Shown here: positions 493 to 61,965 of the stretch, piece by piece
Layout of the letters: each line of letters opens with the position of its first letter
Position numbering within the stretch: position 1 is the stretch's first letter
Made by a program: the position numbers and the translations under genes
Notes under the pieces: generated by a model
The model's database searches: none
What the model was told of the DNA's origin: nothing
What the model saw: only the letters and a program-made list of their open reading frames with translations
Assembly: GCA_001972305.1 (NCBI GenBank)
Contig: BDDD01000426.1
Location: 284,617-348,616, forward strand
From: Cephalotus follicularis
Taxonomy: Eukaryota; Streptophyta; Magnoliopsida; Oxalidales; Cephalotaceae
Direction: 5' to 3'
DNA length: 64,000 nucleotides

Positions 493-1035
493 AAAGACGT
501 CGACTTCTTTACCAAAGGCGTCGATGTCTTTCAGTTGGTAGCCGTTATAAGTGGTTAAACTAGCCGTTTCAGGTTTCCCGGGTGTTGTTCACTTGAAAAG
601 GCGTCGACTTCTTTTGAAAGGCGTCGATGTCTTTTCTGGGAAATCTCCAGGTCTTGAAGCTTTGAGTGTCACGTCGATCTCTTTCCTTGGAGTCGATGCA
701 TTTTCTGGGAATTTGCAGGTTGCTCTGTAAATGGCGTCGATCTCTATTTAAAGGCATCGATGTCTTTTGCTTTGACGTCGATGTCTTTCGTTTAAGGATC
801 GATGTCTTTGATTGCAATTTCATACAGTAGCTTCTGGTTTAGAAAACGACTAAAAGCGTCGATGTTATTTTGGAAGTAGTTGATGTCATCTTCAAAGTAG
901 TCGACGTCTTTTGGAAGTAGTCGATGTCTTTTGGTACGGATGTCGATGCCATTACTGGGAGGACAATGTCTTCTTTCCAGTTAATCCTGTACTAAAGACG
1001 TTGATGCTATTTGGAAAGGGTTGACTTCTTTTTCT
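493..1035. repeat. Palindrome array, copia flavour (gacGTCGACttc / gcGTCGATgtc)
   Basis: About 17 imperfect copies of a 10-14 bp motif around GTCGAC/GTCGAT lie 15-40 bp apart, typically ending in tctttt. Examples are at 497, 519, 601, 621, 734, 775, 857, 898 and 918. The array lies inside the copia LTR. The same array, diverged, is at 54378-54660. On the minus strand it stays open at 569-823, but the peptide only repeats DIDAF-like units, so I do not call a gene. Confidence 0.85.
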
Positions 1036-1149
1036 GCAGATAGGTTTTTAGGCTTTGATATTCAACTTGTAATTCCTTACACATCAAGTAAATTAGTTAA
1101 ATGCAAATATGTTATCATCAAAACAAGGATTGAGACTTAATCGTCAACA

Positions 1150-1250
1150 AATGATATGGAGTATGATTTATATTTGATTGAAGGAACTGAATGGATGGTA
1201 TCTCACGCGACGGATCGTGGGGGTTCGCCTTCGTGGTTCAGGGCGTGACA
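1150..1250 (+). mobile_element. 3' end of a D/L-family LTR
   Basis: The stretch ggtatctcacgcgacgg followed by gtgggggttcgcc and a terminal gggcgtgaca matches the 3' ends of LTRs at 49362-49397 and 60183-60237. It ends at 1250 exactly where Ty3/gypsy A coding sequence resumes, so this LTR was inserted into element A. The rest is interrupted by copia 1 or lies left of the window. Confidence 0.7.
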
Positions 1251-2175
1251 TCACCGATATCTAAAGCACCTTAAAGAATGGCACCGTCGGAATTGCAAGA
1301 ACTAAAGGAACAGTTGCAAGAGCTGTTGGATCGGGGTTTCATTCGACCTAGTGTCTCGTCGTGGGGTACTCCGGTTCTTTTTGTGAAGAAGAAGGGCGGT
1401 TCTATGAGGTTATGTATAGACTACATAGAGTTGAATCGAATTACTGTTTAGAACAAATACCCTTAGCCTCGGATTGATGACTTATTTGATCAACTCCAAG
1501 GTGCTCGGTATTTTTCTAAGATCGATCTGAGATCAGGATATCATCAGCTTCGGATAAAGGACGAAGATGTGCCTAAGACTGCTTTCCGTACTCGGTATGG
1601 GCATTATGAGTTTCTGGTGATGCCTTTCGGACTTACTAATGCACCGGCAGTTTTCATGGATCTGATGAATCGAATGTTTCATGAGTTCTTGGATCAGTTT
1701 GTGATTGTGTTCATAGATGATATCCTCGTGTATTCCAAGTCAAAGGAGGAACATGAAGAACAGCTTCGTATAGTACTGGTTATACTGAGGAAGAATCAAC
1801 TATACGCAAAGTTTTCGAAATACGAATTCTGGTTGGAACAGGTGGCGTTCTTGTGTCATGTGGTCACAGCTGAAGGGATTAGTGTGGATCCTGCTAAAGT
1901 TGAGGCTATTACTAAATGATTGAGACCTAACATAGTGACGGAGGTTAGGAGCTTCTTGGGTTTAGCTGGATATTATAGGCGGTTTGTGGAAGGCTTTTCC
2001 TCCATAGCCTTACCATTGACTAGCTTATGAAAAAGGGAGCTAAGTTTGAGTGTAATGAAAAACGGGAAGCAAGTTTCGAGAAACTGAAGAATGGTCTTGT
2101 GTCAGCACCGATTCTTCATTTATTGCCTGGGTTGGGTGGATACCAGATTTGCAGTGATGCTTCTAAGAAAGTTTT
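1251..2175 (+). pseudogene. pol: Element A reverse transcriptase / start of RNase H
   Basis: The reading runs from just before the RT fingers ([13 protein letters not shown]) through the palm to the start of RNase H (SDASKK). The catalytic FIDD is at 1710-1721, and [10 protein letters not shown] and [13 protein letters not shown] are typical Ty3/gypsy RT motifs. In-frame stops are visible at 1272, 1449, 1464 and 1917, and a small deletion near 2025 shifts the frame. The longest open piece is 1569-1919. RNase H is interrupted at 2175 by insertion of K and resumes at 12271 with LGCVLMQHG. It would have made cDNA in the cytoplasmic particle; it is now a relic. Confidence 0.88.
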
Positions 2176-3572
2176 TGTCACACCCCGTTCCAATAACAAC
2201 AATAATAATGGTAGCAATCAACATAATATCCGGCTTATACAGTTTTAGGCGGAAATTTAAAACTTTCAAAACGATTAATAACTTGCGGAAGCATTCAATT
2301 ATAAGTCGAATTAACAACGTAACACGCATCCCATACTATGTGTTACCAAAATACAACATTTCATTGTTAATTGCCCTCAAAACGGAGCGTGATTAAAACA
2401 TGTCGATACAATATTTCCTTCAGTGCGGAAATCCATCAAGTACAATAAATACATTATCCCAAATTAGTAAAGTCATAAACCATTATACATTAATCTAGTA
2501 CAAGATTCCATCATTACAATAACCAATTGATACAATATCCAACTGATAATTCTTAACAAGCACGTCTCATCATTCTCTTAAAACACGAGTATGGTTATTA
2601 CAATACAATACAATTAAAACAACCTTCAGAAAAGAAGCTTGCAACTCAGCTTCAGAAGCACTTGTCTGATTGCCGCTGTCAATCTGAAATTGTAGGGGGT
2701 TAGCCTTTGTCCTCACTCGGCTAAGTAGAGAAACTATAAATACCTTTCGGGATCAACAATAATGTAAATCATGTAATGAATGCATAATGATGCAGTACAA
2801 TATATATATACAATATGTATTTGTATATGCATCTCGATCAATAGTTACGCAACCATGCCAAGTGGCTACATCAACACAATCCATCAGTCATGTCACTAAG
2901 GACCAATCAATTCAATCAGTATTCGATAACCACCACCCGTAGGTTAGCATTATCTCACGTCGACGCTAACCGGCCCATAGGCGGAGGAAAGCTCGATCAA
3001 TAATTGACACTAACCGGCACGTAGCGGAGGAAGACCATCTGATGTGGTGTCCCTAGCCATCTCCTAGCCCCTAGTGCACAACCTGCCATTAGCGTAAGTG
3101 ACGACCTCCGTCACCGCACTAACAGCGTAACAACCACAATCAATCAAACAATTCAATCATTGATGCTAACCGGCCTCGAGCTAGGAAAGCACACAGCTAA
3201 CCGTCCCGTGGTGCTAGGAAAGCTCAATCAATCCAAAAATCAATCATTTCCAAGTAATTTATAGGTTAAAAATACTTGAAATAATACATTTATTCAAAAT
3301 GTAAATAGTCTTTGAAATCAAGTTTCAATCCTTCGAAAATATACATTTAACAAATATACATTTTCGTGTAAAATAATGATTTGTTATAAAATCATGTATG
3401 CACTTCTAAAATGATAAAACACTTTAGAATTCAATCACATTTCAATTCACAATTCAGTTCAAAGTTCAATTCATACCTACATCGACGCTAACCGGCACAA
3501 GGCAAGGAAAGCTCGACCAATCAACAATAATATGCAAGTAAACATATGCTCAAAATGCAACCCGACCCTTTC

Positions 3573-3935
3573 GGCGTTGACACCTAACCTCTAGGCGCCA
3601 AATCGTTCATATTAGTCACTTAAGCGTCACCGCTTAACCCTAGGCGTCAACGCTTATACCCTTTAAGCGTCGGCGCTTTAACTAGTAACCCAAGTGTCAA
3701 CAATTGTCCCTGACGTCGACGCTTCAAGGTAAGGATCCTTGAGCGTCGGCGTTCATTACTTTGGCGTTGACGCTTTGAGGTAGGACCTCAAGCGTCAACA
3801 TCCACGTGTCCATCACTCCGCATATTCAAACCAGGGCGTCAACGCTTTCCTTAAGCGTCAACATTTTTCGCGAAGTCAGTATACACTCCTACACATAACA
3901 GTCCATAGCATCAATGCTTATTGTCTAAGCATCGA
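3573..3935. repeat. Palindrome array, GCGTCGACGCTT flavour (K 3' LTR)
   Basis: About a dozen variants of gcgtcgacgctt, gcgtcggcgcttt and gcgtcaacgctt are spaced 15-40 bp apart, with clear examples at 3658-3675, 3712-3730, 3740-3755 and 3836-3850. The homologous array in the other K LTR is at 10433-10805. Confidence 0.85.
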
Positions 3936-4534
3936 CAGTTAGAGAAGATCAAAAACATCTTCTTCTTCAACACGTTCAATACCAAGAGATCAACATGAAT
4001 AATCACATATGCAATTCAATCCACAATCATTTCAATCACAATATGCAAGGCAGGTTAGCTACTTATAGCAACCCTAACACAAATCACACCATTCACACAC
4101 CAAGGGAAAATCATCCCAAAACGTGCATGCAATTCAATCCACAAAGTCCATGCATTTCATCAACAATAAACATCATTCTTGAACTCAAATAAGCAAGTAT
4201 AAATCCCCTACTATTACCCCTACCTCTGATTCCAAGCTAGGAATCGCAGTATCACTAGCACAGTCGAGCCGTAGGTTCAATTGCCGAACCTCTCCAATAA
4301 CTGCTGAACCGAAGCCGGTTCTTGCTAATTGATCTTTTCCACTGCAAAATCCAATTTCTGCACACACTGCACATACAACACATTTCGTTACGATCAACGC
4401 ACGCAAAACATTGTCGTCGCCAAAACGTTGGCCGGATTCCGGACAACTCATCTAGCTTGCGAAATACCCATCAACGGGTTCCACATTGAACGGTCTACAT
4501 AGAACCGCTCACGACTCACCGGGAATCGGCGCTG

Positions 4535-4735
4535 AACGCCGCGCCGCGGCCGGCAGTGAGTTGTGACTCACTGAGTCAACTCCCCGGACCTCCACAGGTC
4601 CGATCACCACCCAAAAGTGCCACACATTCACCAGTCCTACACGTCACTGCCCGTGACTCGCCAAGACTCGGCGCCAAACGCGCCGTCTCAGGCGACAATG
4701 AGTCGACTCGCTGAGTCGACTCAGTCAAGCCATTC
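4535..4735. repeat. GAGTCGACTC-type palindrome cluster (K 3' LTR)
   Basis: Several copies of tgagtcgactc or its diverged form (gactcactgagtcaactc) lie at 4550-4585 and 4699-4725. Similar clusters occur near the 5' side of LTRs D (40215-40420) and L (50690-51015), and in G copy 2 (25196-25480). Confidence 0.75.
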
Positions 4736-5019
4736 CGGCCGATTCCGGCCAAATCACGTCTCACCGGTGGTGGAAATGGGTAGAGCGGACCTTCTACACC
4801 ATAACCCATGCCATATGCGACGCTAACGGCGCCGGGAAACGCCTGGAGGAAGCGCGACAGTGGCGGCAGAGGAGAAGAAGAAAGAAGAGAAAATAGGAGA
4901 AGGGGGAAGAGCTTACCGGCGGTAGGCGTGCCTGGGTGGTCCGCCGTCCTCTCCCGGTCACGTGGTTGGCTCCGGCGTCATCTCCGGCGCCCTCTCTCCC
5001 TCTTTCTCCCGCTGTCTCT

Positions 5020-5050
<31 letters not shown>

Positions 5051-5403
5051 GTCTGTAGGTTATTCGCACGGGCGCGCTATGCGCTCGTGTCTCCCTCCTT
5101 CTTCTTTTATTATTTTTGCTTCCTCCTTAGTATTTTTTGGTAAAATACTAAGGTTTAGGTCCCGATTTTTCCGCGAATCGCGACATAATTTATCCAAACG
5201 ACCACCAAAATAATCGCAATAAAAATGTGAACATTTGGGCTTTATTGTCGCGCATTAAAAATAGGTTTTATTAGCCGTCTTAGCTAACATGATTACGACT
5301 TAAATGCGTAATGCCTTTTTATTACTCCGGGCTCTATCGATTTAATCACAACTATACATGCACCAATTTCATAATAATTATTTATGAAATTCGGGGCGTT
5401 ACA

Positions 5404-5693: not shown

Positions 5694-6100
5694 TGTAACG
5701 ACCCGATCCTTAACCACATGAGAAATTGTCCGCTTTTGTCCCACGCAGAACATACAGAGCCCATACATCTGTGTTTCCACGTGGACCATCACGGTTTTGT
5801 CCTAATTGATGGATTGGTCAGACTTCCCAGGATGTCATCCATACTGGTTTTGCCCTGAGTGCAACACGCTTAACTTTGGAGTTTCCACTAACTCCTCAGC
5901 CAATCCATCAAAAGGCGCCTCATGTAATTAGGTTCAAGGATCATTTCTTATATAGCACAGCCATACTTTCCCCCATTTCGATGGATCCGGCTCATTCCTG
6001 TCACAAGGGCGGCTCCATCTCATGGATAGCCCTTTCCTCTTGGCGGCTTCATCTCATGGATAGCTCTTTCCTCTTGGCCACACTTAAGTGGGGTGTCGCA
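5694..6100 (-). repeat. TRIM 3' LTR (407 bp)
   Basis: It aligns over its whole length with 6171-6574, differing by scattered substitutions and small indels. It ends gtgtcgca where the partner has gtgtcaca. Confidence 0.85.
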
Positions 6101-6170
6101 AGCCCACTAGCTTCCGCCTGGTTCGTCCCTGAACCACATCTACTGGAGGGGGTCCGTCTCTAATACCAAT
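6101..6170 (-). other. TRIM interior with PBS
   Basis: The 70-bp interior carries taataccaat at 6161-6170, the reverse complement of attggtatta, adjacent to the 5' LTR (6171-6574). At the other end is the short purine-rich segment expected of a PPT. Confidence 0.75.
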
Positions 6171-6574
6171 TGTAACGACCCGATCCTTAACCACATGAGA
6201 AATTGTCCGCTTTTATCCCACGCAGAACATACAGAGCCCATACATCTGTGTTTCCACGTGAACCATCACGGTTTTGTCCTAATTGATGGATTGGTCAGAC
6301 TTCCCAGGAGGTCACCCATCCTGGTTTTGCCCTGAGCGCAGCACGCTTAACTTTGGAGTTTCCACTAACTCCTCAGCCAATCCATCAAAAGACGCCTCAT
6401 GTAATTAGGTTCAAGGATCATTTCTTATATAGCACAGCCATTTCCCCCATTTCGATGGATCCGGTTCATTCCTGTCACAAGGGCGGCTCCATCTCATGGA
6501 TAGCCCTTTCCTCTTGGCGGCTTCATCTCATGGATAGCCCTTTCCTCTTGCCCACACTTAAGTGGGGTGTCACA
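6171..6574 (-). repeat. TRIM 5' LTR (404 bp)
   Basis: Partner of 5694-6100. Its right end is followed by ttcat, paired with ttcac on the far side of the element. Confidence 0.85.
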
Positions 6575-7720
6575 TTCATGCTCCCGAAGGAGGAATCAGC
6601 AATTTATAAATGGGCTCAGCCCTCAACAACCATAATTTAGATCCGAATCATCATTCTAATATCCCAAGTGATGGATCCATTAAAATCATACTCTTAGAAT
6701 TTCTCGAAATTTCGGCATGAAGTATTCGTTTATCGGACTCCATGCCACCTGATAAACCACAGTTTATATGTTTTGGGGTTTAACTCTCATATCTCATCAC
6801 AATCTATATGCTAGGGGCTCCGCCCACACCAGACTACATCTCAATTAAATCCAAATATATCGTTGCATGCGGAAGGATAATCCTTTCAATACCCTCAAAT
6901 GATGGGTTTGATCATATCCAATAATATCATACGCATGCGAAGGATAATCACGTCAAAATCTCAAATGATGGGTCTGATCATATCCAATAATATAATACAT
7001 CGATCAATTGATGCACTGCCACATGCCGGCAGGTCCAATACATCAACACACATTTATTTTCTCGCACAGCCACAAGCCGGTAGGTCATGTAATGTACAAT
7101 AATAAGCCTCAAAATATCAGTTCCCTTACTTTATTCATATAACACAAGATAGGCTGGAGAAATGAAATTTCTTACCATGCGCTTGTCTTGACTAATCACT
7201 GTAACTGCCATATGAACCTGAACCTGACCCACTTCATTTCAGTGAAACAGGTCAGCAGCCAATGGCTGTGTACAATATACATATGTAATGAATGTATGCA
7301 GAGGTGTAGCAGATATATATATATAATGTCAATCATGTGAGATGCGTACATAGCATAAGCAATGTGAACAATGTCATTTCACATTTATACAAGTCATAAC
7401 ACAATACGTCATCAGTAACTCTACCATATACCATCATCCGGGGCCTTTCGTCCCGTGTCGTGCCATGACCGTGCTATATCCATCCCTTTTCATATCCGTT
7501 CATGGTCCGTAGCCGTTTACAGTCCATATCCATTCACAATTCATATCCGTTTACCCTCTACCAGGAATCTAGAGGCTAACAACATATGTAGTTGTCATCT
7601 AACGACCGACTAAATATATATATTGTCCCATACCAGCACATATAAGTAGTTGGCCACCCATCGGTTCATTCAGAATCTATTTAGAGCATTCATCCAATGC
7701 CCATCCATTCGATAACAGTC

Positions 7721-8110
7721 CATTCGACCACTATCCGATCAATAATGACCCATTCGGTCACTATCCATTCAACAACGATACATTCGATCACTAACCGCTC
7801 GATAACAGCTCATAATGCCACTAACCGCTCGATAACGGTTCATACGACCACTAACCGCTCGATAACGGTTCATACGATCACTACCCGCTCAACAACGGTT
7901 CAAACGATCACTATCTGTTCAATAACAGTTCATACGATCGCTAACCGCTCAACAACGGTTCAAACGATCACTATCCCTCTAATAACGATTCAAACGATCA
8001 CCATCCGTTCAACAACGGCCCATATGATCGCTAACCACTCAACAACGGTTCAAACGATCATTATCCGTTCAATAACGGTACATTCGATCACCAACAGTTC
8101 AACAACGGTC
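7721..8110. repeat. Minisatellite, 13 units of 30 bp
   Basis: Units start every 30 bases (7721, 7751, 7781 ... 8081) with a consensus like catacgatcactaaccgctc followed by aacaacggtt. As 30 is a multiple of three, frames stay open through it (7697-8191), giving a threonine/isoleucine/serine-rich repeat peptide that I regard as incidental. The reverse complement resembles the gttatggaacggatacgg series in LTRs D and L. Confidence 0.9.
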
Positions 8111-8500: not shown

Positions 8501-8949
8501 TGATCTCAATCGGAATCAAAACCCATGTGAAACCGGGCAGTTTCACTAAAACATGGCTATTGGCGTCAACACCACCCTTTAGGCATCGACGTCATCACTC
8601 TAGGTATCTACATTCATATCAGGCTCTTCCAAAACGGTTCCCATCATGCCACGCAACATGGTCAGGAACCATGTGCTGTGGCTATGCTTGTGCGTACAAT
8701 CGACGCATATCCTTCATGTTGCAGCATTCGCAGCCGTCTGCTGCTGGAAGTAATCCGTTTTATAGCTCATCGGGTCCGTTCTGTCATTTACTTCCTCAGG
8801 AACATTTCATTAACGGCTCAAAGCCTTCCACGTTTTCTACTTCCATCCGTTTTGTTTCCTTTTAAGGAAGATCATGATTAATCACATCTTTAGGAAACAA
8901 TCGTTAATTGCCAAGGATAGTATCCCAACGATAGCTTATAAAAGGAATA
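8501..8949 (-). other. Untranslated leader/gag remnant of K (unrecognised)
   Basis: This lies between D-type sequence and the PBS, where leader and gag should be. I see no recognisable gag protein in any frame. A small cluster of ggcgtcaacacc and gcatcgacgtc motifs lies at 8560-8600. Confidence 0.4.
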
Positions 8950-8968: not shown

Positions 8969-11884
8969 TGTCACACCCCGCTTCACAACCGACATATATA
9001 TAGTGGTGGCAATCAACATAATATCCGGCTTATACAGTTTTACGCAGAAATTTAAAACTTTCAAAACGATTAATAACTTGCGGAAGCATTCAATTATAAT
9101 CCGAATTAACAACGTAACACGCATCCCATTCTACGTGTTACAAAAATACGACATTTCATTGTTAATTGCCCTCAAAACGGAGCGTGATTAAAACATGTAG
9201 ATACAATATTTTCTTCGGTGCGGAAATCCATCAAGTACAATAAATACATTATCCCAAATTAGTAAAGTCATAAACCATTATACATTAATCCAGTACAAGA
9301 TTCCATCATTACAATAACCAATTGATACAATATCCAACTGATAATTCTTAACAAGCACGTCTCATCATTCTCTTAAAACACGAGTATGGTTATTACAATA
9401 CAATACAATTAAAACAACCTTCAGAAAAGAAGCTTGCAACTCAGCTTCAGCAGCACTTGTCTGATTGCCCCTGTCAATCTGAAATTGTAGGGGGTTAGCT
9501 TTTGTCCTCACTCGGCTAAGTAGAGAAAGTATAAATACCTTTCGGGATCAACAATAATGTAAATCATGTAATGAATGCATAATGATGCAGTACAATATGT
9601 ATTTTTATATGTATCTCGATCAATAGTTACGCAACCATGCCAAGTGGCTACATCAACACAATCCATCAGTCATGTCACTAAGGACCAATCAATACAATCA
9701 GTATTCGATAACCACCACCCGTAGGTTAGCATTATCTCACGTCGACGCTAACCGGCCCATAGGCGGAGGAAAGCTCGATCAATAATTGACACTAACCGGC
9801 ACGTAGCGGACGAAAGTTCAACAAACAAATGAGTCTACCGGCACAAGGCGGAGGATAGCTCAAAGTGTGGATGTCAACCGGCACGTAGCGGAGGAAGACC
9901 ATCCGATATGGTGTCCCTAGACATCTCCTGGCCCCTAGAGCACAACCTGCCATTAGCGTAAGTGACAACCTCCATCACCGCACTAACAGCGTAACAATCA
10001 CAATCAATCAAACAATTAATTCATTGATGCTAACCGACCCCGAGCTAGGAAAGCACACAGCTAACCGTCCCGTGGTGCTAGGAAAGCTCAATCAATCTAA
10101 AAATCAATCATTCCAAGTAATTTATAGGTTATAAAATACTTGAAATAATACATTTATTCAAAACGTAAATAGTCTTTGAAATCACGTTTCAATCCTTCGA
10201 AAATATACATTTAACAAATATACATTTTCGTGTAAAATAATGATTTGTTATAAAATCATGTATGCACTTCTAAAATGATAAAACACTTTAGAATTCAATC
10301 ACATTTCAATTCATAATTCAGTTCACAGTTCAATTCATACCTACATCGACGCTAACCGGCACAAGCAAGGAAAGGTCGACCAATCCATAATAATATGCAA
10401 GCAGACATATGCTCAAAATGCAACCCGACCCTTTCGGCATCGACACCTAACCTCTAGGCGCCAAATCGTTCATATTAGTCACTTAAGCATCGCCGCTTAA
10501 CCCTAGGAGTCAACGCTTATACCTTTTAAGCGTCGGCGCTTTAACCAGTAACCCAAGTGTCAACAATTGTCCCTGACGTCGACGCTTCAAGGTAAGGATC
10601 CTTGAGCGTCGGTGTTCATTACTTTGGCGTCGACGCTTTGAGGTAGGACCTCAAGCGTCAACATCCACATGTCCATCACTCCGCATATTCAAACCAGGGC
10701 GGCAACGCTTTCCTTAAGCATCTACGTTTTTCGCGAAGTCAGTATACACTCCTACACGTAACAGTCCATAGCGTCAATGCTTATCGTCTAAGCATCGACA
10801 GTTATAGAAGATCAGAAACATCTTCTTCTTCAACACGTTCAATACCAAGAGATCAACATGCATAATCACACATGCAATTCGATCCACAATCATTTCAATC
10901 ACAATATGCAAGGCAGGTTAGCTACTTATAGCAACCCTAACACAAATCACACCATTCACACACCAAGGGAAAATCATCCCAAAACGTGCATGCAATTCAA
11001 TCCACAAAGTCCATGCATTTCATCAATAATAAACATCATTCTTGAACTCAAATAAGCAAGTATAAATCCCCTACTATTACCCCTACCTCTGATTCCAAGC
11101 TAGGAATCACAGTATCACCAGCACAGTCGAGTCGTAGGTTCAATTGCCGAACCTCTCCAATAACCGCTGAACCGAAGCCGGTTCTTGCTTATTGATCTTT
11201 TCCACTGCCAAATCCAATTGCCGCACACACTGTACATACAACACATTTCGTTACGATCAACGCACGCAAAACATTGCCATCGCCGAAACGTCGACCGGAT
11301 TCCGGCCAACTCATCCAGCTTGCGAAACACCCATCAATGGGTTCCACATTGAATGGTCTACACATAACCGCTCACGACTCACCGGGAATCGGCGCTGAAT
11401 GCCTCGCCACGGCCGGCAGTGAGTTATGACTCACTGAGTCAACTCGTCGGACCTCCACAGGTCCGATCACCACCCAAAAATGCCACACATTCACCAGTCC
11501 TACACGTCACTACCCGTGACTCGCCAAGACTCGGTGCCAAATGCGCCGTCTCAGGCGACAGTGAGTTGACTCGCTGTGTCGACTAAGTCAAGCCATTCCG
11601 GCCGATTCTGGCCAAATCACGCCTCACCGGTGGTGGAAATGGGTACAGCGGACCTTCTACACCATAACCCACGCCATCTGCGACGCTAACGACGCCGGGA
11701 AACGCCGGGAGGAGGCGCGACAGTGGCGACAGAGGAGAAGAAGAAAGAAGAGAAAAGAGGGGAAGGGGGAAGAGCTTACCGGCGGTAGGCGTGCCTAGGT
11801 GGTCCGTCGTCCTCTCCCGGCCACGTGGCTGGCTCCGGCGTTGTCTCCGGCGCCCTTTCTCCCTCTCTCTCCCGCTGTCTCTCC

Positions 11885-11920
<36 letters not shown>

Positions 11921-12270
11921 TGCAGGTTATTCGCACGGGGGCGCTATGCGCCCGTGTCTCCCTCCTTCTTCTTTTATTATTTTTGCTTCCTCCTATGTAT
12001 TTTCTGGTAAAATACTAAGGTATGGGTCCCGATTTTTTCGCGAATCGCGACATAATTTATCCAAACGACCACCAAAATAATCTCAATAAAAATGCAAACA
12101 TTTGGGCTTTATTGGCGCGCATTAATAATAGGTTTTATTAGCTGTCTTAGCTAACATGATTACGACTTAAATGCGTAATGTCTTTTTATTACTCCGGGCT
12201 CTATCGATTTAATCACAACTGTACACGCACCAATTTCATAATAATTATTTATGAAATTCGGGGCGTTACA
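8969..12270 (-). repeat. Element K 5' LTR (3302 bp)
   Basis: Direct repeat of 2176-5403. It has an extra stretch of about 70 bp near 9810-9890, an extra ctaccggcacaaggcgg-type module, and lacks the tatatata run at 2803-2811. CT microsatellite at about 11889-11917. Confidence 0.88.
10433..10805. repeat. Palindrome array, GCGTCGACGCTT flavour (K 5' LTR)
   Basis: Counterpart of 3573-3935. Individual motifs have changed independently, mostly CG to CA/TG, as expected from cytosine deamination. A GAGTCGACTC-type cluster follows at 11415-11605. Confidence 0.83.
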
Positions 12271-13080
12271 GGTTTGGGTTGTGTTTTGATGCAGCACGGT
12301 CTTGTGATAGCTTATGCTTCAAGACAGTTGAAACCTTATGAAGTGAACTATCCTACACATGATCTTAAGTTGGCAGTTTGTGGTGTTTGTGTTGAAGATC
12401 TACAGGAACTATTTGTATGGAGAACCTTGTGAAGTTTTTACCGATCATAAGAGTCTCAAGTACATCTTCACCCAGACAGAGTTGAACATGCGTCAGAGGC
12501 GATGGTTGGAGCTTCTGAAGGATTACGATTTGAATATTTTGTACCACCCCGGTAATGCAAACATGGTAGCTGATGCTCTTAGTAGAAAGAGTTTTGGGAG
12601 TGTAGCGGCTTTGCTTACTCAGCCGTAGTTTTTAGCTGATATGGAGTGGTTGGATTTGAATATGTATGTTCGGGATTTTGGAGGTTATGCTACTGCCATG
12701 AATGTAGAGCCTACTCTTATATCTCAGATTATGTCAGCTCAGAGTGATGATGATGAGCTTTAGGCCTTAGTCCAGAATGTTGAAAAGGGTAAGCAATAAG
12801 AGTTTCGTATGGATGAGCATGGTGTGATATGGTTGGGTAGTCGGTTCTGTGTTCTGGCTGATCCTTCTATCAGAAATTATGTTTTGTCAGAGGCACACAG
12901 TTTTCCATTTTCTATACATCCGTGTTCTACAAAAATGCATAGAGACTTGAAAAAGAACTTCGGGTGGAATGGCATGAAAAGGGATGTAGCGGAGTATGTT
13001 GGGAGGTGTTTGGTCTGTCAGCAGGTAAAGATTGAACACTAGCGAGCTAGTGGGTTGTTACAAACCTTGGAGGTTCCAGT
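12271..13080 (+). pseudogene. pol: Element A RNase H and integrase N-terminus
   Basis: This continues RNase H after the K insertion with LGCVLMQHG...YASRQL. A frameshift near 12370 is followed by [11 protein letters not shown] and ADALSRK, then the integrase zinc-binding region with [11 protein letters not shown] near 13010-13038. In-frame stops occur near 12627, 12762, 12798 and 13040. The RNase H domain is split, 2170 to 12271. It would degrade RNA in the RNA:DNA hybrid and begin integrase; it is non-functional here. Confidence 0.85.
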
Positions 13081-13983
13081 TTGGAAATGGGAGATATTTC
13101 GATGGATTTTGTTACAGGTTTGCCGAGGACTTTCAGGAGGAACGATGCTATCTGGGTAGTAGTGGATCGATTGACTAAATCGGCTCACTTTTTGGCTATT
13201 CGAGAGGATTTCTCTGTAGACCGTTTGGCGGAGGTTTTCCAGCATGAAATAGTGAGACTCCATGGGACTCCGATATCCATTGTTTCAGATAGGGATCCCC
13301 GTTTCACTTCGCTGTTTTGGAAAGGTTTCAAGAAGGCGTGGGGTACGAGGCTCAGTTACAGTACAGCTTTCCATCCACAGACAGATGGGCAGACTGAGAG
13401 GACCATCCAAACCTTAGAGGATATGTTAAGATCTTGTGCTTTGGAGTGGACTGGGAACTGGGATGAGTATTTGATCTTAGTGGAGTTTGCCTACAATAAT
13501 AGTTGGCACGCTAGTATCCGTATGGCTCCTTTTGAGGCTTTATATGGGAGGAAGTGTCGAGCTCCGACATGTTGGGATGAGGTTGGAGAACGAGTTATTG
13601 AGGGACCCGAGCTAGTTCAGATCACTACTGAAAAAATGGCAATAGCAAGGGAGAGATTGAAGGCAACTCAATCTCGACAGAAGAGTTATGCAGACAGACA
13701 TCAGAGGGACTTAGAGTTCAAGGTAGGTGAACATGTGTTCTTAAAAGTTTCACTTTGGAAAGGAGTCCGACGTTTTGGGCTGAAAGGAAAGTTGAGTCCA
13801 TGGTTTATAGGACCCTTCGAAGTTCTGGAAAAGGCGGGCGTAGTTGCATATCGGTTAGCTTTGCCTCCGCAGTTAGCACACATTTATAATGTGTTCCACG
13901 TGTCTTTGCTGAGGGGTTATCAGTATCATTCCTTACATGTGATCCACTATCCTCTAGATAGTATTCGGGAAGACCTATTGTGA
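13081..13983 (+). pseudogene. pol: Element A integrase core and C-terminal domain
   Basis: The open stretch of 300 codons covers the rve core. The first catalytic Asp is in SMDFVTGLP, the second in SDRDPRF and the Glu in TDGQTERTIQ, with GPFEVLEKAGVVAYRLALPP and NVFHVSLLRGY in the C-terminal part. It ends at a TGA at 13981 caused by a small indel just before the chromodomain; element B reads through here (DLSCDEEADAI). The ATG at 13081 is only the first Met after an upstream stop, not a real start. An active enzyme would join cDNA ends to chromosomal DNA. Confidence 0.87.
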
Positions 13984-14141
13984 CGAGGAGGCAGAGGCTA
14001 TTCTGGATAGACAGGAGCGGGTTACACGTAGCAAGACTGTTCCTTTTGTGAGAGTTTTGTGGAGGAACCATCCCGAACGTGAAGCTACATGGGAGTTGGA
14101 GGATTATATTCGGCAGCAATACCCTCACTTGTTTGTTTAAG
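13984..14141 (+). pseudogene. pol: Element A chromodomain
   Basis: After the frameshift the sequence encodes AILDRQERVTRSKTVPFV, VLWRNHPEREATWELE and a stop after YPHLFV. This integrase C-terminal chromodomain defines chromoviruses and is thought to steer insertion toward particular chromatin. Its adjacency to the PPT confirms the pol end. Confidence 0.82.
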
Positions 14142-14180
14142 GTATGTTTATGTTTATGATTTCGGGACGAAATCCTTTTT

Positions 14181-14194
14181 AAGGGGGGGGTGGA
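14181..14194 (+). other. Polypurine tract of element A
   Basis: aaggggggggtgga lies immediately before the LTR start tgtaatacc and has the same form as in element B (37181-37192). Confidence 0.85.
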
Positions 14195-16992
14195 TGTAAT
14201 ACCCTGTTTATTTGTATGCATGTTTTACGGACTTTTAATATGTTTGTTTGTGGGCTTTTTAATTTGTTTTGTTATGAAGTCCGTTTACCCTATTATGGGC
14301 CTAGGCGACTGATACCAGCCTGAACCTTGGATATGATGGTGTGTGCATGTTTTGGTAAGGATTATGGTTTTGATTTATGCTTATGTCATTTTAAATAAAT
14401 TAACTTTCATAATTTCTAATTTTACAATTTTCAAAACTTATTAAAATAAAATCTTTTTATTTTCTATTTTTATTTCCTTTCTTATCTCTCTCCTATCTCA
14501 CCCGTATCTCTCCCTCTCCCACCCGTCTCTCTCTCCTATCTCTATCTCTCCCAATGATCTCTCCCTCTCTTAACTCCCTCATGCGTTTTCTTCCTCTTTT
14601 CCTTATCTGTCCCTAAATTCCCTCCCTCTTTCTGTTTTAGAGTGGTTTTGGTTATTGTTTTGTGCCATCTGTTTCTCTTGCAAATCACTGCCAAATTTTG
14701 CAAGCAAGGAATCTATTTTGGTTCTTCGTACGATTTCTTCATCAAATCAGGTTTGTGTTTTATTCTTACATTCCTTTTATTGTTCTATTTTGGTTATACA
14801 CACCTTTGGCAAACTTTAAAACCATGTATTCTTTCTCTTTTGTTCCTGTTGATCAGCTGTTTAAGTCTGGAAAATCGTTGTGTTAGTACAACATTTGTGT
14901 GTCACCATTACAGGTTAGTTAATTCGTTCCTTACTGTGATGCTTTTTGCTACAATGTTATGAATTTGATTTTGTATACATAAAGGCTGTTAGAGTTTGTT
15001 TCATGTCATGATGTGTTTTGTCATGGTTTATGAAGCTGTCAACATGTTTTAGGCATCATAGATATGTTGCAAACTGGTTTTGACATCTGTTAATGGTACT
15101 GGACAGCAAACTTGGACTATAAATTATGTATGCATGTGATTAGAAGTCATCCTTCTTTTAAAGTCTAGCCACTGGTCACATGGTCAATGTTAATTTTGTG
15201 TTTTTCTACTGTTAAAGGACCATATAATGACTTATGTAAATGTTTATAGGCCTATGGTGTTGTGGTATCCATGTTTTGAGAAGCTTTTGCATTAAATTGT
15301 AGAGTTTCTGCTGTTCTGTCATCCAGAACAGTCGACTGTTCTTATGGACAGTCGGTTGTCGTATGTTGAGTAGTTGGCTGCCTTACGAATAAGTCGACAG
15401 CTTTGCCTTGCACAGTTGATAGGACCCCTGTCACAGTCGACTGGCTGCAGTCCAGTTTGTGTAGTTGGCTGGCCCTGTTGCATAGTCAACTTCCAAGCTT
15501 CCAACAGTCGGTTGGAGCTCTGTAATAGTCTGTTGTTTTGCCCAGGAAATTTCTGTTTTCAATTTTCTTGGTCCGTTTGCATTTCGGATTGATCGGGGTC
15601 AGTCCTAAACACTTTTATAATTCTATTTTATGCCGAAAATGATTTTCAGACCCTTATATGAATGGTTTTGTATCTTTTAGATTGTTGTGCTTCGAAGGGC
15701 AATATATATATATCAGTCTTTTTGTAAGTCTTTTTTGTAAGCGCATAAGGTACGGGTATTCTGCTCTTTGACACTCTCTTCGATTTTATTGAACAAAATT
15801 CGGTTTTGTATTATGAATGGATATCGTTTCTTTGCTATATTCCTTCAGTTTTATGAACTCGGTTATATTTTATGATTTTGATATGTTCTGAAATAAAGTC
15901 GGTTTTGACATTTTGAAAAATAAATGTTCTTGACTTTATACTTATGCTATGATATGTTATGAACTATGTTATGATCATATCTTTATAGTGGAAATAAATG
16001 AGTTGATGCTCCGATTATGAAATATATATTATGATATTGTTTGTTAACGATTTTTGAATATGTTTCGAAAAAGACACGTTTACGTGGATTTTAAATTGAT
16101 TATGATAAATAAACGTTTTCGAAATGATATAATACTGAGTATTTGTACCCACCTATGGGGCGTAGCATAGGCATGCCGTAGGCCTGGCACAGGGACATGA
16201 CACTTCCGTAGCGGTGTGATTAGTCTATGACGTCTCTGTATGTTACGAATAAATCCCATGAGGTGGATTTATGGATCCGTTAGGTATGATAGAGGCGTAT
16301 GAATCGATTCTAGTATATGGCATACGTATGGAGTTATGCAATATGTGATATGATATGATACGAGAATTGACTTGTGTAGTGTCGTACACTTCAATTCTAT
16401 TGGGTATGTGGAATTAGTGCCTCCCTTGCCATCTATAAGTTTTGATACATGATATGTTGTGAGACTCAGTATGAATTTTATGTTTTCTTGTATGTTCGGA
16501 AGTTATGGATTTGACTTCAAAGAATGTTTAAACTGATTTACTGCGTAAGATTTCTGTTTTGAAATAACTTCTGAAATCTTGTTGCTTCTACATTATCATT
16601 TACTTTTTTACATTCTTTATTCGTACTGAGGTTTGCTCAATCGCGTTTTTGTTTCCATACGGCAGGTAATCAGGAGCACCGGGGGAAAGTGTGGTTGAGT
16701 GATGTCCATAATATGTCAAGGATCCTCTAGGAGTGTGATCCTGTTATGTTTTTTGTTAGGATTGGTTTTGAACAATATGTTACTTAATGGTTTAAGTTTT
16801 CAGTTTTTCACCCTTGGAACATGTTTAAGTTTTAGAATATTTCAAGTTTTCAGTTATAGTTTTAGATATTGCTATGTTATGACTGCCACGTATTTTGCTA
16901 ATAAAGTTATGCTTATGTTCAGTTAAGATATGTTCTGTTAAGTTCTGTTAAGTTATGACATGTAATGGCTCCCATCGTTCGGGGGTGTTACA
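14195..16992 (+). repeat. Element A 3' LTR (2798 bp)
   Basis: It runs from tgtaataccc to gggggtgttaca. It shares with the LTRs of B the 3' region tactgaggtttgctc...gcgtttttgtttc...gcggcagg (16625-16670) and the cctatg(a/g)gg...catagg block (16150-16260). Unlike B, its mid-LTR array is of the CAGTCGACTG flavour (15325-15535). No gene; a pyrimidine-rich tract spans 14480-14640. Confidence 0.85.
15325..15535. repeat. Palindrome array, CAGTCGACTG flavour (element A LTR)
   Basis: About nine motifs such as cagtcgactgttc (15328), cagtcggttg (15348), cagtcgactgg (15433) and cagtcggttgg (15504) are spaced 15-30 bp apart. The corresponding arrays in element B LTRs use GTCGACGCTTT instead. Confidence 0.85.
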
Positions 16993-17374: not shown

Positions 17375-17840
17375 CAGGCGACATAGGCGTCGACGCGTAC
17401 GAGAGCAGGTAGAAGAGATCGCACAGGAGGGAAGAGAGAGAAAGAAAGAGTCCAAGTGTGTTCAGTAAGTTTCTCTAAAACTATTTATAGTGCTAACTTT
17501 CTCTCTGCTCTTGGAGTCAACGTGTACGCAAGGCGTCAACGTGTACACGTCTCACATTACGAAATGGCGTCAATGCCAGAGATAATATGAGACAGGTGCA
17601 TAGTATCATTTGTCTTCGCGTCAACGCCAAACCCCATGGCGTCAACGTGTAAAGCCACTGGTTTTTCCAGCGTCAACACATGCTCTCCATAGCGTCAACG
17701 TCCAACGACCTTTCTAGTTTAGACGTCGATGAGATGCCCTCGTAGCGTCGACGTATAAAGCTACTGGTTTTTCCAGTGTTAACGCAATCCCTTCGCGTCA
17801 ACGCCTAGTAACTCAACTAGACATTGGCGTCAACACACAA
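17375..17840. repeat. Palindrome array, GCGTCAACG flavour (G copy 1)
   Basis: About 14 motifs of the type ggcgtcaacgtgtac, gcgtcaacgcc and gcgtcgacg run from 17388 to 17835. G copy 2 carries GAGTCGACTC-type motifs (25196-25480) instead. Confidence 0.8.
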
Positions 17841-36408: not shown

Positions 36409-36410
36409 CT

Positions 36411-42390: not shown

Positions 42391-43490
42391 CATCGCATGG
42401 CATATGATATAGCGTTTCGCCATACAGATTGTACGGCTACGGTTATGGTACGGTTATGGAACGGATACGGAACCGTTATGGAAGGATTATAGAACGGATA
42501 TGACATGGTTATGAATCGTATCGTTATGGATCTTAATGGTCCGAATTGTGATGGTATATGGATATTGATGGTGGCTGTAGCTAGAGAGACCAGTGTTAGA
42601 GAAGGTCCATCTTCTCTTCCCTGTTCTACTTACGAATGCTACTCTAGTATGCCAGTAGAATGAGGACCTCTACTTAGGACACCAAGAGCGCCTAGTCTGT
42701 TACCTCAGCAAGGAAGGCCGAGAAAAGCTTATATATGCTTTGGAAGGACTTTGGAATGATATGGACGTCGAATGATAATGGAATTGTGTTGGAATTGTAT
42801 AGATATGGTTATTGAATGGTGTCTAGTATGGAAAATGGCAAGTCTCTAAATGCTAGTTTTCATAGCATGATTTATATCGATTGTCATGCATACATCTCTC
42901 ATACTGTACACATATCTGTTGCACTTCTATATGTTCCTTGCATATGTATATCCTACACAACATTCGAGTTGCTGACCCATTGTATTGTAATGTAATGGGT
43001 TAGGTTCAGGTCCAGGTGACGCGCAGTAGTGACCAGTTAGGTTAAACCGCAGAGTAAGGAATTACATCCCCTCCAACCTACCTTGTATAAATGTGATTAA
43101 TGTAAATGAACTGATATTGTATAAGAGACATGTTTTATTTCTGTATTTGACCTGCCGGCTTTTGGCAGTGCTAGATTTATATGAGTGTTGATGTAAAGGA
43201 CATGGATGGTGTAACGCCCGGGTTTTTCATTGTGTGTATTATTGTATTTCCCCAATGTAATTTCATCATGAATAAATGAGAATTATGATCTTTCCATCTT
43301 GGTGTGTAACATCTTGAGTGAAAAGTGTTAAGAGTATTATCTTAAGTTGAATTCCTGAAAAAGTGTGCTCAAACAGCCGACTGGTTGATAAAACAGTCGA
43401 CTGGGAAACTGTTTAGCTGCATAGTCGACTCGTGAATTGAACCAGCCGACTGGTAGACTGCCAAGCCACCTGGCAGTCCAACAGTCAAGT

Positions 43491-47701: not shown

Positions 47702-47960
47702 AACAGCCGACTGATTAGAGAAAATAGTCGACTTTTTAAGGTACACAGCCGACTGTCAAAGGAAAACAGCCGACTGTGCATGCGTTAGCCTCCCAGAAAT
47801 GGCAATAAGAATCATATGTACATTGTTCGTGTAGACAGTCGACTGTTGAGGAAAAACAGCCGGCTGCTCATGCACTAATCGCCTAGAACAACCGACTATT
47901 GGAGGAAAATAGTCGACTGCTCAAATAAACAGCCGACTGTTACAGGGAATAATCGACCTT
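47702..47960. repeat. Palindrome array 2 of LTR E, CAGCCGACTG flavour
   Basis: About ten motifs: cagccgactg (47705, 47747, 47768), cagtcgactg (47837), cagccggctg and agtcgactgc. Array 1 of the same LTR (43372-43490, continued 46873-46912) has the same flavour, while the related LTR C has GC-arm motifs at both sites. Confidence 0.84.
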
Positions 47961-53589: not shown

Positions 53590-53732
53590 GAGTCCAACAG
53601 CAGTCCAACCAGTCAGCTGGAATCCTTACCAGTCGGTTGTTCTGGGTCGAGCAGTACCCAATAGTCGGCTGGTTCCTTCTACCAGTCGACTGTCCATTAG
53701 GCAGTCGGCTGTTATCCTTTAATAGTCGACTG
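53590..53732. repeat. Palindrome array, CAGTCGACTG flavour (LTR M, left)
   Basis: About seven motifs: ccagtcagctgg, ccagtcggttg, atagtcggctgg, ccagtcgactgtcc, gcagtcggctg and atagtcgactgtg. Copia 2 is inserted exactly at the end of the last motif. Confidence 0.83.
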
Positions 53733-54660
53733 TGAATAAACTACAAGGGGGGGGGGGGTGAATTGTAGTTTCTAAAAATAATCTAAACTTTTCGCAATGA
53801 ACAATAATAATGAACAATATCAGTATAAACAATAATGTAAAGAGATAGAGCTAGGGGATTTGCAAACACTAGTTTAGAGTGGTTCGGCCAAACTCTTGCC
53901 TACGTCCACGTTTCCCAAGGATCTCCTTGAGTTTCCACTAGTTCTCCGAATACAATTGCGGGTGTTATTCGGTACACCTTTGTGATTGACCTCAATCACT
54001 TATAACTCTCTTTGGGTTCACTCCCCAAATTCACTAGGGTTCACTCCCCTATTACAATCAAAGTATAAAGTGTAGTGTTTGTAACTAAACCTCTCACAAG
54101 GTTGGATATTACAAGATATAATTTGCTCAATTCAGTGAGAACAAGAAAATAGCTTAAAGTGTGAAGAGAAAGCTTTTAGAATGAACTTTGAATTTGATTT
54201 GATCTTTGTATGTTTGTTTTGCTTGATCTTTGTATGTATGATTTTCTCCACACTTTTCTCTGAGGTTTCAGTCTTCCTTTTATAGCCATAAAAGGTTTGT
54301 AGTCGTTGCATGAATTATGGAAGCTTTTGATTAAAGAATGTGTAGTTGCAATCTTTGATTATTGTCTCTACTGGTATAAAGACGTCGACTTCTTTCGAAA
54401 GGCGTCGATGTCTTTGTAGCTGATAGCCGTTGGAAGTGCTTGTACTAGCCGTTCCAGGTTTCCCGGGTCTTGTTCATTTAAAAAGACGTCGATGTCTTTT
54501 TAAAAGGCGTCGATGTCATTTCTGGGAAATCTCCAGGTATTGACACTTTGAACATCACATCGACTTCTTCTGTGGGAGTCAATGTATTTTCTGGGAAATG
54601 CAGGTAGCTCTAGAAAGGCGTCGATGTCTATGTAAAGGCGTCGATGTCTTTCGTACGGAC
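53733..54660 (-). repeat. Copia 2 LTR (5'-truncated), with G12 run
   Basis: Part of it (54325-54650) matches the copia 1 LTR (443-775): sequence around tagccgtt(c/t)caggtttcc and the array are shared. The end carries a run of 12 G at 53747-53758 inside gggggtgaattgtag. The array (54378-54660) has eight or so motifs. The 5' start tgttgacg seen at 1149 is absent here. Confidence 0.75.
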
Positions 54661-56174: not shown

Positions 56175-56425
56175 CGATTTTTGAGTAAAAGACGTCGACG
56201 TGATTAAAAAGAAGTCGACGCGTTCTTTAAATGAACGGAAGAAATCGATACAGAAAACGATGCGTTTTGAAAAGCATCGACGTGTTTAAAAAGGAGTCGA
56301 CGTGTTTCAGTGAAACACAAAGGGATCGACATTTTTCAAAAAGGATCGACATGATTTTCATGAGTCATACAGTTTTGCAGAAAAGAAGTCGACGACATTT
56401 TGTAAAGCATAAAATTTCCAGAAAA
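56175..56425. repeat. Palindrome array between copia 2 RNase H and accessory ORF
   Basis: About ten motifs such as gacgtcgacgtg, aagtcgacgcg, gcatcgacgtg, gagtcgacgtg and aagtcgacgac. It lies in a non-coding spacer (55983-56544), not in the LTR. Confidence 0.8.
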
Positions 56426-56544
56426 GAAGTCAACTCTTTTGTAAAACAGAGCAGAAAAATCAAGCCAAAAACAGAACAATAACTAAAACAATCATCATAT
56501 CAAATATGCAATCAATCAAACATATCATTCAAACATCATAAACA

Positions 56545-57228: not shown

Positions 57229-57543
57229 TTACTCATCTTTGTCAAGCTTTGTTGTTGTGCTCATGGGTGTTTTGCTCTTTTTAGCACTCGCCATCCCAAA
57301 TCTCTTAAGTAAGTCCTTGACATACTTTGATTGATTGATGAAGATGCCTTCCTCCAATTGTTTGACTTGAAGTCCGAGGAAGTAATTGAGCTCACCCATC
57401 ATGCTCATCTCGAATTCCACCTGCATAATCTTAGCAAAGTTCTTGCACAAGTTTTTGTTAGTAGAACCGAATATGATATCATCCACATATATTTGAACAA
57501 TCAAAATTTCACATAATCTCATTTGATTCTCAGTAGCAAGCAT
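57229..57543 (-). pseudogene. pol: Copia 2 reverse transcriptase, C-terminal part
   Basis: Encodes the catalytic YVDDIIFGSTN, MSMMGELNYFLGLQVKQ, GIFINQSKYVKDLLKRFGM and KTPMSTTTKLDKDE, then TAA. The N-terminal two thirds of RT is missing because copia 2 is cut near 57545, where LTR M resumes. The Met at 57543 is internal or junctional, not a start codon. Confidence 0.88.
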
Positions 57544-58149
57544 AGCAGATGAAAAACAGTAGCAACCACGTCTTAAAATCGGTAACTACAACTCACGCAA
57601 CCAGGCATTCAAATCATGGAACATGCAGTAACTTTAAACTCAAAATACCATTACAACTTCCCCTACCTTTTGATTCCAAGTTAGGAATCTGTAAGTCCAC
57701 CTCTTTGTGTTCCAACAGTGACGTTTTGGGATCCCAGAAGTTCCAACTCCAAGCCCACCAGCTCCAAGAACAGCCCAATAGCTCCAACCCGAGCTCCAAG
57801 CTTCAACAATGGAGAAACACTCCCTTCCCTCTTTTCTCTGTGTTTTTCTCTACTATCCTCTTTGGTTCTTAGACTTTTTAGTACCAGGACGAAGGACATG
57901 AGTGAAGACGTTTTATGCAGAGTGTTTCTCTCCCTCTCTTCCTTATCTCCCTTCACATGGCACTAAATGCCAAATTTCTATTCCACATGCATGCACACAC
58001 CCACGGGTCTAAACTCCTTCCCCCCATGAAGTTTGCATGATCCACAGGTGTCCTCTTCTTCCATTCCTTAGTTGCATGAAACATAGATGGCACCCACTTC
58101 CATCTGTCAGCTGTAGCATGTGATTTCCATCACATGCAACAAAACAGAG

Positions 58150-58310
58150 CACGATCCAGTCGGCTGTCCACACCCAACAGCCGGCTGCTCGCCTGGCAGA
58201 TCGTTACCATGTAGCTCGACAGTTGGCCAGTCGACTGGTTCATCCCACCAGTCGACTGTTCCCATATGCAGTCAACCAATAGGCTGGTCTACTGTACCAG
58301 TCGACTGTTC
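58150..58310. repeat. Palindrome array, CAGTCGACTG flavour (LTR M, right)
   Basis: About eight motifs including ccagtcggctgtcc, aacagccggctgc, ccagtcgactgg (58229), ccagtcgactgttc (58250) and ccagtcgactgttc (58297). Same flavour as the other array of this LTR. Confidence 0.83.
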
Positions 58311-61043: not shown

Positions 61044-61088
<45 letters not shown>

Positions 61089-61663
61089 TTTTCAAGTGTG
61101 TGTGTGTGTGCGCAACCTGGACGTTTTTCATAGTGAAAAACAGAGAACATGTTTTCTGGACTATGAGACTTGGCCATTGGTCTTGGAGTTCTTGCAGAGA
61201 GAGTGTGTGAACATTGGTTTCTTTGTTCTTAGAGAACAAAAGAGAGAAAAGAGAGAAAGCGATATACCATAGTCTTCAAACACCACAGCTTGATTTCTAT
61301 AGGTGGTGTACTGCTTTCATTGAGCATTACATTCCCTATATTGATCCTATTTTAGGATTAGAAATATAGGACTTGTATTTACCTTGGTTATTCCACTGCT
61401 GTCTGTTCCTGAGTGAAAGCTTTAAGTCTCAGAATGGATTCTTGAAGGAAGGAGTTTGCTAGCTCGGTATAAACTCTATCCTTCTCTAAATGTTTATATT
61501 GTTTGATTGGGCTGTTGATTAGCGATCCTAGGATGTTTATGATTGTTTATAGTGTTAGAATATGGGACGTTCTTTGTTATAGAGCCACTTTAATGAAAAT
61601 TAAAGTTGTACATTCTATGTTCCTAACCCCTAAAATGGCCATAATCTCAGTTTTGTTCTTCCA
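60238..61663 (+). mobile_element. LTR family G-related LTR, copy 3 (5' part missing)
   Basis: The start (ctagggttgacacat, ggagccgagg(a)tgac) matches the reverse complement of 26340-26390 in G copy 2. It ends ttgttcttcca before a PBS at 61666, so it is a 5' LTR in forward orientation whose first part was lost at the junction with L. The last part does not resemble the ends of G copies 1 and 2, so the family is only related. GA microsatellite 61050-61084, GT run 61097-61110. Confidence 0.6.
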
Positions 61664-61665
61664 AT

Positions 61666-61674
61666 TGGTATCAG
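61666..61674 (+). other. Primer-binding site of G copy 3
   Basis: tggtatcag (followed by aagta) matches the first nine bases of the initiator tRNA-Met PBS, three bases after the LTR end cca. Confidence 0.75.
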
Positions 61675-61751
61675 AAGTACTAATCAACCGCAGTTAAACA
61701 TTGTTTTTGGTTTTTGGTGACTGTTTTGGATTAAAATTCATGGCTAATATT

Positions 61752-61794
61752 GTCTAACTGACGACGGTTTCGCGTAAACCGTCGACAGTTAGAC
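61752..61794. other. 19-bp stem hairpin in leader of G copy 3
   Basis: gtctaactgacgacggttt (61752-61770) pairs with aaaccgtcgacagttagac (61776-61794) at 18 of 19 positions around a 5-base loop cgcgt. It lies about 80 bases after the PBS, where retroelement RNAs often have packaging or dimerisation structures. A GTCGAC core is inside the right arm. Confidence 0.85.
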
Positions 61795-61965
61795 ATTAAG
61801 TGCTGACGGTATGCGTTAAGCGTTGAAGGAAACCTTGAGCGTTGGCGCTTTGCTTTGAGCGTCAAAGCTTAGTGGTTTAGACAACGACACTTTGTCTAAA
61901 GCACAGCATGTTACTCAAAGCGTCGACGCTGGTAACCGCCAAAGATTAAGATAAAGAGTTGGCGC
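61776..61965. repeat. Palindrome array in leader of G copy 3
   Basis: About eight motifs: cgtcgacagtt, gcgttgaagg, gcgttggcgctt, gcgtcaaagctt, agcgtcgacgctgg and gttggcgcttt. This one lies after the PBS, outside an LTR. Confidence 0.78.

Follow-up and report, generated by a model that had tools for sequence, protein, structure and literature searches.

The 64,000-nucleotide stretch of the Cephalotus follicularis genome described here (contig BDDD01000426.1, positions 284,617 to 348,616; hereafter the window) carries Ty3/gypsy and Ty1/copia retrotransposons together with 19 arrays of short palindromes sharing the core GTCGAC (Table 1). Both long terminal repeats (LTRs) could be delimited for just two window elements, E1 and E2, and arrays are present in both. 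E1 is a Ty3/gypsy element with a chromodomain and SH3_Tf2-1 at 36357-37136, an LTR pair that is 94% identical, the target-site duplication GTGCT, LTR ends TGTAATAT...TTACA, and the primer-binding site (PBS) TGGTATCAGAG; the array sites of its 5' LTR lie about 130-250 and 1030-1130 bp from the LTR start. E2 has LTRs that are 94-95% identical, and its ends, PBS, and polypurine tract (PPT) follow the style of E1. A retrotransposon domain was not found in three open reading frames (ORFs) in or near the internal part of E2, which resembles the Ty3/gypsy elements in its PBS, PPT, and LTR ends only. The Ty1/copia element of the window is marked by a reverse transcriptase fragment and by ORFs matching PF20167, which are flanked by two arrays.

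The window contains 61 copies of GTCGAC against 7.6 expected from its dinucleotides, which ranks the word first among the 64 palindromic hexamers. We counted as a site any 10-mer with at most two mismatches to one of four arm types (CA, GC, GA, and AC) and as an array at least four related palindrome sites. On this basis the window has 170 sites, and its arrays hold 4 to 10 sites each, whereas 12 simulated order-3 Markov windows have a mean of 58.4 sites and yield one array in all 12. The arrays reported in a preliminary description of the window, made from the letters alone, are thereby confirmed, and 10 of the 11 cluster ranges listed there overlap an array of at least four sites. The range 29920-30065 contains merely two exact GTCGAC, however, and the 7 to 17 copies claimed per cluster exceed what we find. 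Across 20 sampled 10-kb loci (200 kb, 15,181 letters not included), GTCGAC is again top-ranked (110 against 14.2), and 30 arrays are spread over 15 of the loci. Five hold-out loci contain 26 GTCGAC (5.1-fold, also top-ranked) and six arrays, located in three of the five. In the whole 1.577-Gb assembly GTCGAC occurs 849,481 times, compared with 231,366 occurrences of CAGCTG, the same word reversed and a control that has no CpG. Two further palindromic hexamers are over-represented in the window, GGCGCC (16, 4.4-fold) and GACGTC (25, 3.3-fold), the latter being partly included in the AAGACGTCGACGTCTT family.

The arms next to the core mirror each other more often than expected. Of 185 GTCGAC sites (window and loci L001, L004, and L008-L028) we compared the 148 that are non-redundant with a null of shuffled right arms, numbering arm positions from 0 at the palindrome centre. 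Mirror matches at positions 3, 4, and 5 number 104, 68, and 62 against 67.3, 45.3, and 43.3 after shuffling (p = 0.0005 each), position 6 is less pronounced (p = 0.035), and positions 7-9 show no excess in this set. Among 11 control palindromic hexamers, 10 of them with enough sites (CTCGAG had too few), none is comparable to GTCGAC; ATCGAT (p = 0.025, a single position) and GCATGC (p = 0.007, position 9) come closest. When the 16 palindromic 4-mer cores are compared, arm symmetry is raised for TCGA alone, both in the window (47 of 264; others 2-8%) and in the 20 sampled loci (70 of 541; others 3-8%). The symmetric arms form the families CAGTCGACTG, GCGTCGACGC, and AAGACGTCGACGTCTT. CA/TG arms are found at 43 sites, GC/GC at 7, and GA/TC at 3, and the two mixed CA-GC forms, with GCGTCGACTG as the mixed-arm 10-mer counterpart to CAGTCGACTG and GCGTCGACGC, at 2 and 2. 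The CA profile reads CAGYCGRCTG (C/G at the Y/R place in 23%) and the GC profile AAGCGTCGACGCTT, and most sites have a CpG at the centre.

The sites are also spaced by whole turns of the helix. In 32 unrelated arrays out of 52, giving 565 pair distances, a scan of periods from 6 to 30 bp returned 10.30 bp as the best period (bootstrap 10.22-10.35) with R = 0.521, the null maxima being 0.150 for random placement and 0.132 for jitter (300 runs each). CA arrays (13, R 0.58) and GC arrays (15, R 0.51) exceed their null maxima of 0.19 and 0.24. Adjacent gaps lie within 0.2 turn of a whole number in 161 of 191 cases, the period having been fitted on the same data, and excluding gaps of 18-24 bp leaves 65 of 94 in phase against 38.5. 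The dominant step in these arrays is 20-22 bp, with 27-35, 40-44, 47-53, and 69-73 bp also occurring. A stretch of contig C1, the first rows of which overlap L001-L008, members of the first array set, has 67 non-redundant pairs, 48 of them at 20-22 bp, 10 at 27-32 bp, and none at 24-26 or 34-38 bp. Genome-wide, 224,538 GTCGAC pairs lie 10-40 bp apart, compared with 3,925 for the reversed control. In the hold-out arrays (39 gaps), R at 10.3 bp is 0.315, a value equalled by 1 of 2,000 null runs, and 18 of the gaps measure 18-24 bp.

Between related elements (33 overlapping pairs with shared arrays, identity up to 93%) the sites differ at 136 of 1,395 non-CpG positions (9.7%) and the spacers at 748 of 3,619 (20.7%). 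Between the paired LTRs of E1 and E2, the sites differ at 26 of 282 positions and the rest at 267 of 5,543, and this faster decay of the sites is explained by CpG. At CpG positions the sites differ in 17 of 115 cases (14.8%) and the rest in 69 of 463 (14.9%), and at other positions in 9 of 167 (5.4%) and 198 of 5,080 (3.9%; p = 0.31). The rate of change at CpG positions is roughly three- to fourfold that at others, within and outside sites alike, which resembles the behaviour of methylated CpG. A host-level constraint on single copies was rejected, as the LTR pairs show no site protection when CpG positions are treated separately. That sites are conserved between elements but lose this protection after insertion fits selection only in active lineages, with neutral decay and CpG loss in dead copies.

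Arrays of this one design occur above chance in gypsy LTRs and in copia elements, as the preliminary description had proposed. The gypsy LTRs carrying them are those of E1, L016, L022, and L028. In L022 gag, protease, and reverse transcriptase lie between two paired LTRs, of which the second is truncated by the locus end, and in L016 and L028 pol is followed by a PPT, the start of the LTR, and the array, in that order. On the copia side, an array lies between pol and an env-position ORF in the window element and in L025 (RVT_2 at 9161-9802, minus strand; array at 8561-8728; PF20167 at 7577-7957, minus strand). L012 has a Sirevirus-type set of PPTs (AGGGGGAG at 5964, 5840, and 5759, minus strand), then a probable 3' LTR, apparently starting at 5749 to judge from TGTTGATATTG, with an array 146-599 bp inside; its class is taken from the PPTs, because no pol on the PPT strand was found within the locus. 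Other AGGGGGAG octamers number two in L025 and two in the L024 linker, both without an LTR start, and none in the window. Copia membership is also possible for the CA-type arrays next to PF20167 in L016, L020, and L024, an assignment made less sure by nesting: several CA arrays located apart from gypsy pol, that at L025:6371 among them, are homologous to the L016 gypsy LTR array.

We consider it probable that the arrays are cis-regulatory clusters of putative sites for dimeric DNA-binding proteins, cooperatively bound and serving as LTR enhancers. Binding by such a protein was one of the roles considered in the preliminary description, and among those roles it is the one that the helical spacing would favour. 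The symmetry of the sites suggests a dimer, the turn-wise steps suggest binding on one face of the DNA, the family-wise arms suggest several specificities, and the presence in two superfamilies suggests either one common factor or repeated capture. Each palindrome would be bound by a symmetric dimer, with the YCGR/TCGA centre as the common contact and the arms deciding which family member binds. Whole-turn steps, mostly of two turns, would set the dimers on one helix face, where neighbours could touch and bind cooperatively. Within the LTR, and in copia elements also ahead of the extra ORF, the array would act as an enhancer, and it would be under selection only while the lineage transposes, the sites then decaying like other DNA. 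The dimeric proteins would be one or a few related ones, either host-encoded or element-encoded in the manner of VANC. What the data show directly is the enrichment, the symmetry by family, the 21-bp step, and the conservation of sites between elements with its loss after insertion; the protein, its binding as a dimer, the cooperativity, and the enhancer function are inferred. Plant LTRs diverge fast, which makes shared regulatory logic hard to see. That two retrotransposon superfamilies use one palindrome vocabulary with turn-wise spacing suggests a common factor, and the long-standing question of what LTR palindrome clusters are for becomes testable. More tentatively, a sequence-specific protein system used in trans, perhaps from one element family, may assemble cooperatively on the phased palindromes of both Ty3/gypsy and Ty1/copia; the changes of arms would then be changes of specificity, resembling an arms race against silencing, and some 850,000 GTCGAC would be its trace in this genome.

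Several results weigh against binding by cooperating dimers. The shuffle of right arms, when confined to 3-kb clusters, removes the arm effect except at position 3 (134 against 124.1, p = 0.001), so the symmetry lies mainly between families and the palindrome is a family property. The arm symmetry is real and specific to the GTCGAC core but belongs to families, and the earlier statement that arms vary while staying palindromic holds for the symmetry above shuffle level at positions 3-5 and fails for site-by-site co-variation inside clusters, which is near shuffle level. The two GA and two AC arrays stay within their null for spacing, the top period of the hold-out is 23.7 bp (R 0.396), and its gaps outside 18-24 bp are in phase in just 10 of 21 cases. 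When only exact GTCGAC counts as a site, 32 of the 58 gaps outside 18-24 bp are in phase (p = 0.02). For three distance ranges, gaps permuted inside arrays reach the observed value in 20, 62, and 155 of 500 runs, and gaps permuted across arrays in 21, 7, and 12 of 500. A long-range lattice beyond the phasing of neighbours is weak by these permutations and was set aside. The contig C1 stretch and the hold-out also show the 21-bp step, and we regard the two-turn step as firm and the odd-turn steps, strong in the sample but not reproduced, as likely. Sites were called by similarity, which partly favours their conservation between elements. TATA motifs have no consistent place downstream of the arrays in seven LTR stretches, and the binding protein is putative.

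Tandem duplication alone, in which a minisatellite unit of about 21 bp spreads by slippage and the spacing is merely the repeat period, would account for the predominance of 21 bp, for the several arrays called as tandem repeats, for a 76% internal duplication at a 127-bp shift in the L024 array, and for the out-of-phase remaining steps of the hold-out. We nevertheless think it unlikely, as adjacent 21-bp units have spacers with little resemblance (32% identity over 20 pairs, compared with 27% between loci), the 32 arrays often show steps of 28-32, 50-53, and 69-73 bp, and spacer change between elements runs at twice the rate of site change. The copies themselves may nonetheless stem from duplication. 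Pairing of neighbouring copies as transcript hairpins, for packaging, dimerisation, or silencing templates, seems distinctly unlikely. Array RNA folds better than approximate shuffles (median z -3.75, 26 of 32 arrays), and maize Sirevirus palindromes attract small RNAs according to two reports (PMC10760457, PMC5311732), but such z-scores arise from any complementary copies, and hairpins between copies would need no whole-turn steps. The analogy with retroviral dimer loops drawn in the preliminary description likewise leaves the helical spacing unexplained, though array RNA is unusually foldable. Slightly less likely still in our view is a nucleosome or chromatin code, with palindromes at steps of about 10.3 bp positioning or repelling nucleosomes or offering CpGs to the methylation machinery. 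The period is near the nucleosomal repeat, CpG centres most sites, and A+T varies along the 54 spacers of 21-bp steps, peaking at 0.67-0.74 in positions 2-3 and 9-10 and falling to 0.50 midway and to 0.41 and 0.46 at the two ends, but the mid-spacer dip is small and family-specific arms of 10-16 bp are not called for. Palindromes as integration targets were rejected because the arrays lie hundreds of bases inside the LTRs and the E1 duplication GTGCT is no palindrome.

The closest known relatives are the repeated motif (RM) boxes of Sireviruses, and the preliminary comparison with Sirevirus palindrome clusters is supported. According to Bousios et al. 2010 (PMC2829016), RM boxes are palindromic and CpG-bearing, number 8-32 copies per element, form clusters both within the LTR and ahead of the env gene, and vary in sequence between elements. 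The Vitis box CGGTCGACCG includes GTCGAC and the Tnd-1 box ACAATCGATTGT is centred on TCGA. The boxes are termed Sirevirus-specific there, in a comparison with Ty1/copia only, and a word search of that article for spacing terms returned no statement on RM box spacing. The present arrays share with the boxes, as far as described, the position between copia pol and the env-position ORF. They differ in their YCGR/TCGA core without the CGG-CCG signature, in the occurrence of the same arm types in the Ty3/gypsy LTRs, and in keeping turn-wise spacing. Against the minimum of at least 8 copies, the E2 LTRs hold 9, L022 13 (LTR end undelimited), and L012 12-13, whereas the E1 LTRs hold 7 each, 4 of them in one array. 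The Sirevirus arrangement of several AGGGGGAG tracts, with the final one 10 bp away from the 3' LTR, would fit L012 if the LTR there starts at 5749. The TATA box described about 37 bp after the Sirevirus array was not seen in the seven LTR stretches, three of which (L022, L016, and L028) are undelimited at the far end. What is known already is thus the Sirevirus LTR clusters; the TCGA-centred vocabulary, the sharing with Ty3/gypsy, and the helical spacing are additions. A literature search of titles and abstract openings met no helical phasing of LTR palindromes; most subscription literature and a 2016 article in Genome Research about the palindromes of Sireviruses lie outside its coverage, and that article may describe phasing.

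The motif arrays of VANDAL DNA transposons are one-orientation tandem repeats with an element-encoded VANC protein, the motif changing between related families while the unrelated element AT9TSD1 shares one (Hosaka et al. 2017, PMC5735166). Like VANC targets, the arrays are a dense short motif in non-coding element DNA that differs between families. VANC motifs are not described as palindromic in the text available, unlike the sites here, and the VANC protein is known and element-encoded, whereas here the protein is putative. In a further known system, as partly documented, one palindrome is common to unrelated element classes, as here, but the core differs and a small-RNA link is known there.

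PF20167 is Transposase_32, a putative plant transposon protein; in the window element and L025 its ORFs follow copia pol, where Sireviruses usually carry their env-like gene, and this position suggests an env-like gene. Further such ORFs lie near arrays at L016:6098-6928 and L024:2615-3391. The L016 ORF has 349 database matches, and the 120 listed are all from Cephalotus follicularis (62-91% identical); one window piece is only 27% identical to it over 84 residues. The PF20167 ORF was considered as a palindrome-binding protein and dropped, its predicted structure being too poor to judge (predicted local distance difference test 43.7; no fold search was made). An ORF after copia gag at L026:6374-7246 weakly matches a leucine zipper (bZIP_1, E 2e-4, below cut-off), which may reflect no more than a coiled coil.

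Table 1. Elements, ORFs, and palindrome arrays of the window
Feature	Position	Strand	Remarks
E1 5' LTR	29793-32407	+	Ty3/gypsy, chromodomain, initiator methionine (iMet) PBS
E1 3' LTR	37193-39807	+	matching array at 38200-38328
Array in E1 5' LTR	30821-30928		4 sites
Array in E1 3' LTR	38200-38328		4 sites
E2 5' LTR	8969-12270	-	iMet-type PBS; arrays 10343-10780 (9 sites), 11436-11585 (4)
E2 3' LTR	2176-5403	-	array 3479-3845 (9 sites); GAGTCGACTC pair at 4702-4720
RVT_2 fragment (Ty1/copia reverse transcriptase)	57232-57585	-	E 1.3e-16
Two ORFs matching PF20167	54503-56045	-	both below Pfam cut-off; after copia pol
Array, GC/AC arms (AAAGRCGTCGAYGTCTTT type)	424-907		10 sites; adjoins PF20167 ORF 1-588(-)
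Array, CA arms	15329-15514		5 sites
Array, GC arms	17533-17836		10 sites
Array, AC/GC arms	20480-20858		10 sites; homologous to L028 gypsy LTR array
Array, GC arms	23283-23477		5 sites
Array, mostly GC arms	41063-41194		4 sites
Array, mostly CA arms	43374-43452		4 sites
Array, CA arms	45490-45653		7 sites
Array, CA arms (CAGYCGRCTG)	47704-47939		8 sites; steps 21,21,21,69,21,53,20
Array, CA arms	53610-53732		6 sites
Array	54382-54647		7 sites; 84% like 424-907 array; downstream part of PF20167 ORF region (minus strand)
Array	56192-56436		6 sites; between copia pol and PF20167 ORFs
Array, CA arms	58157-58307		5 sites
Array, mostly GC arms	61779-61929		4 sites

Pfam searches of ten ORFs gave one match, a copia SH3 domain at 22164-22667 on the minus strand, and those of ten further ORFs gave none; a tRNA scan found none. 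At L027:642-2924 lies a satellite-like array whose period is close to 163 bp. E2 contains internal repeats (5694-6574 and 7708-8109), namely a direct duplication of 407 bp with 96% identity and about 13 tandem copies of a 30-bp unit. The segments 1252-2170 and 12274-14220 are a relative of E1 (82-83% to 34355-37214) split by the insertion of E2, and the flanking GTTTT and GGTTT hint at a target duplication whose copies differ by one base.

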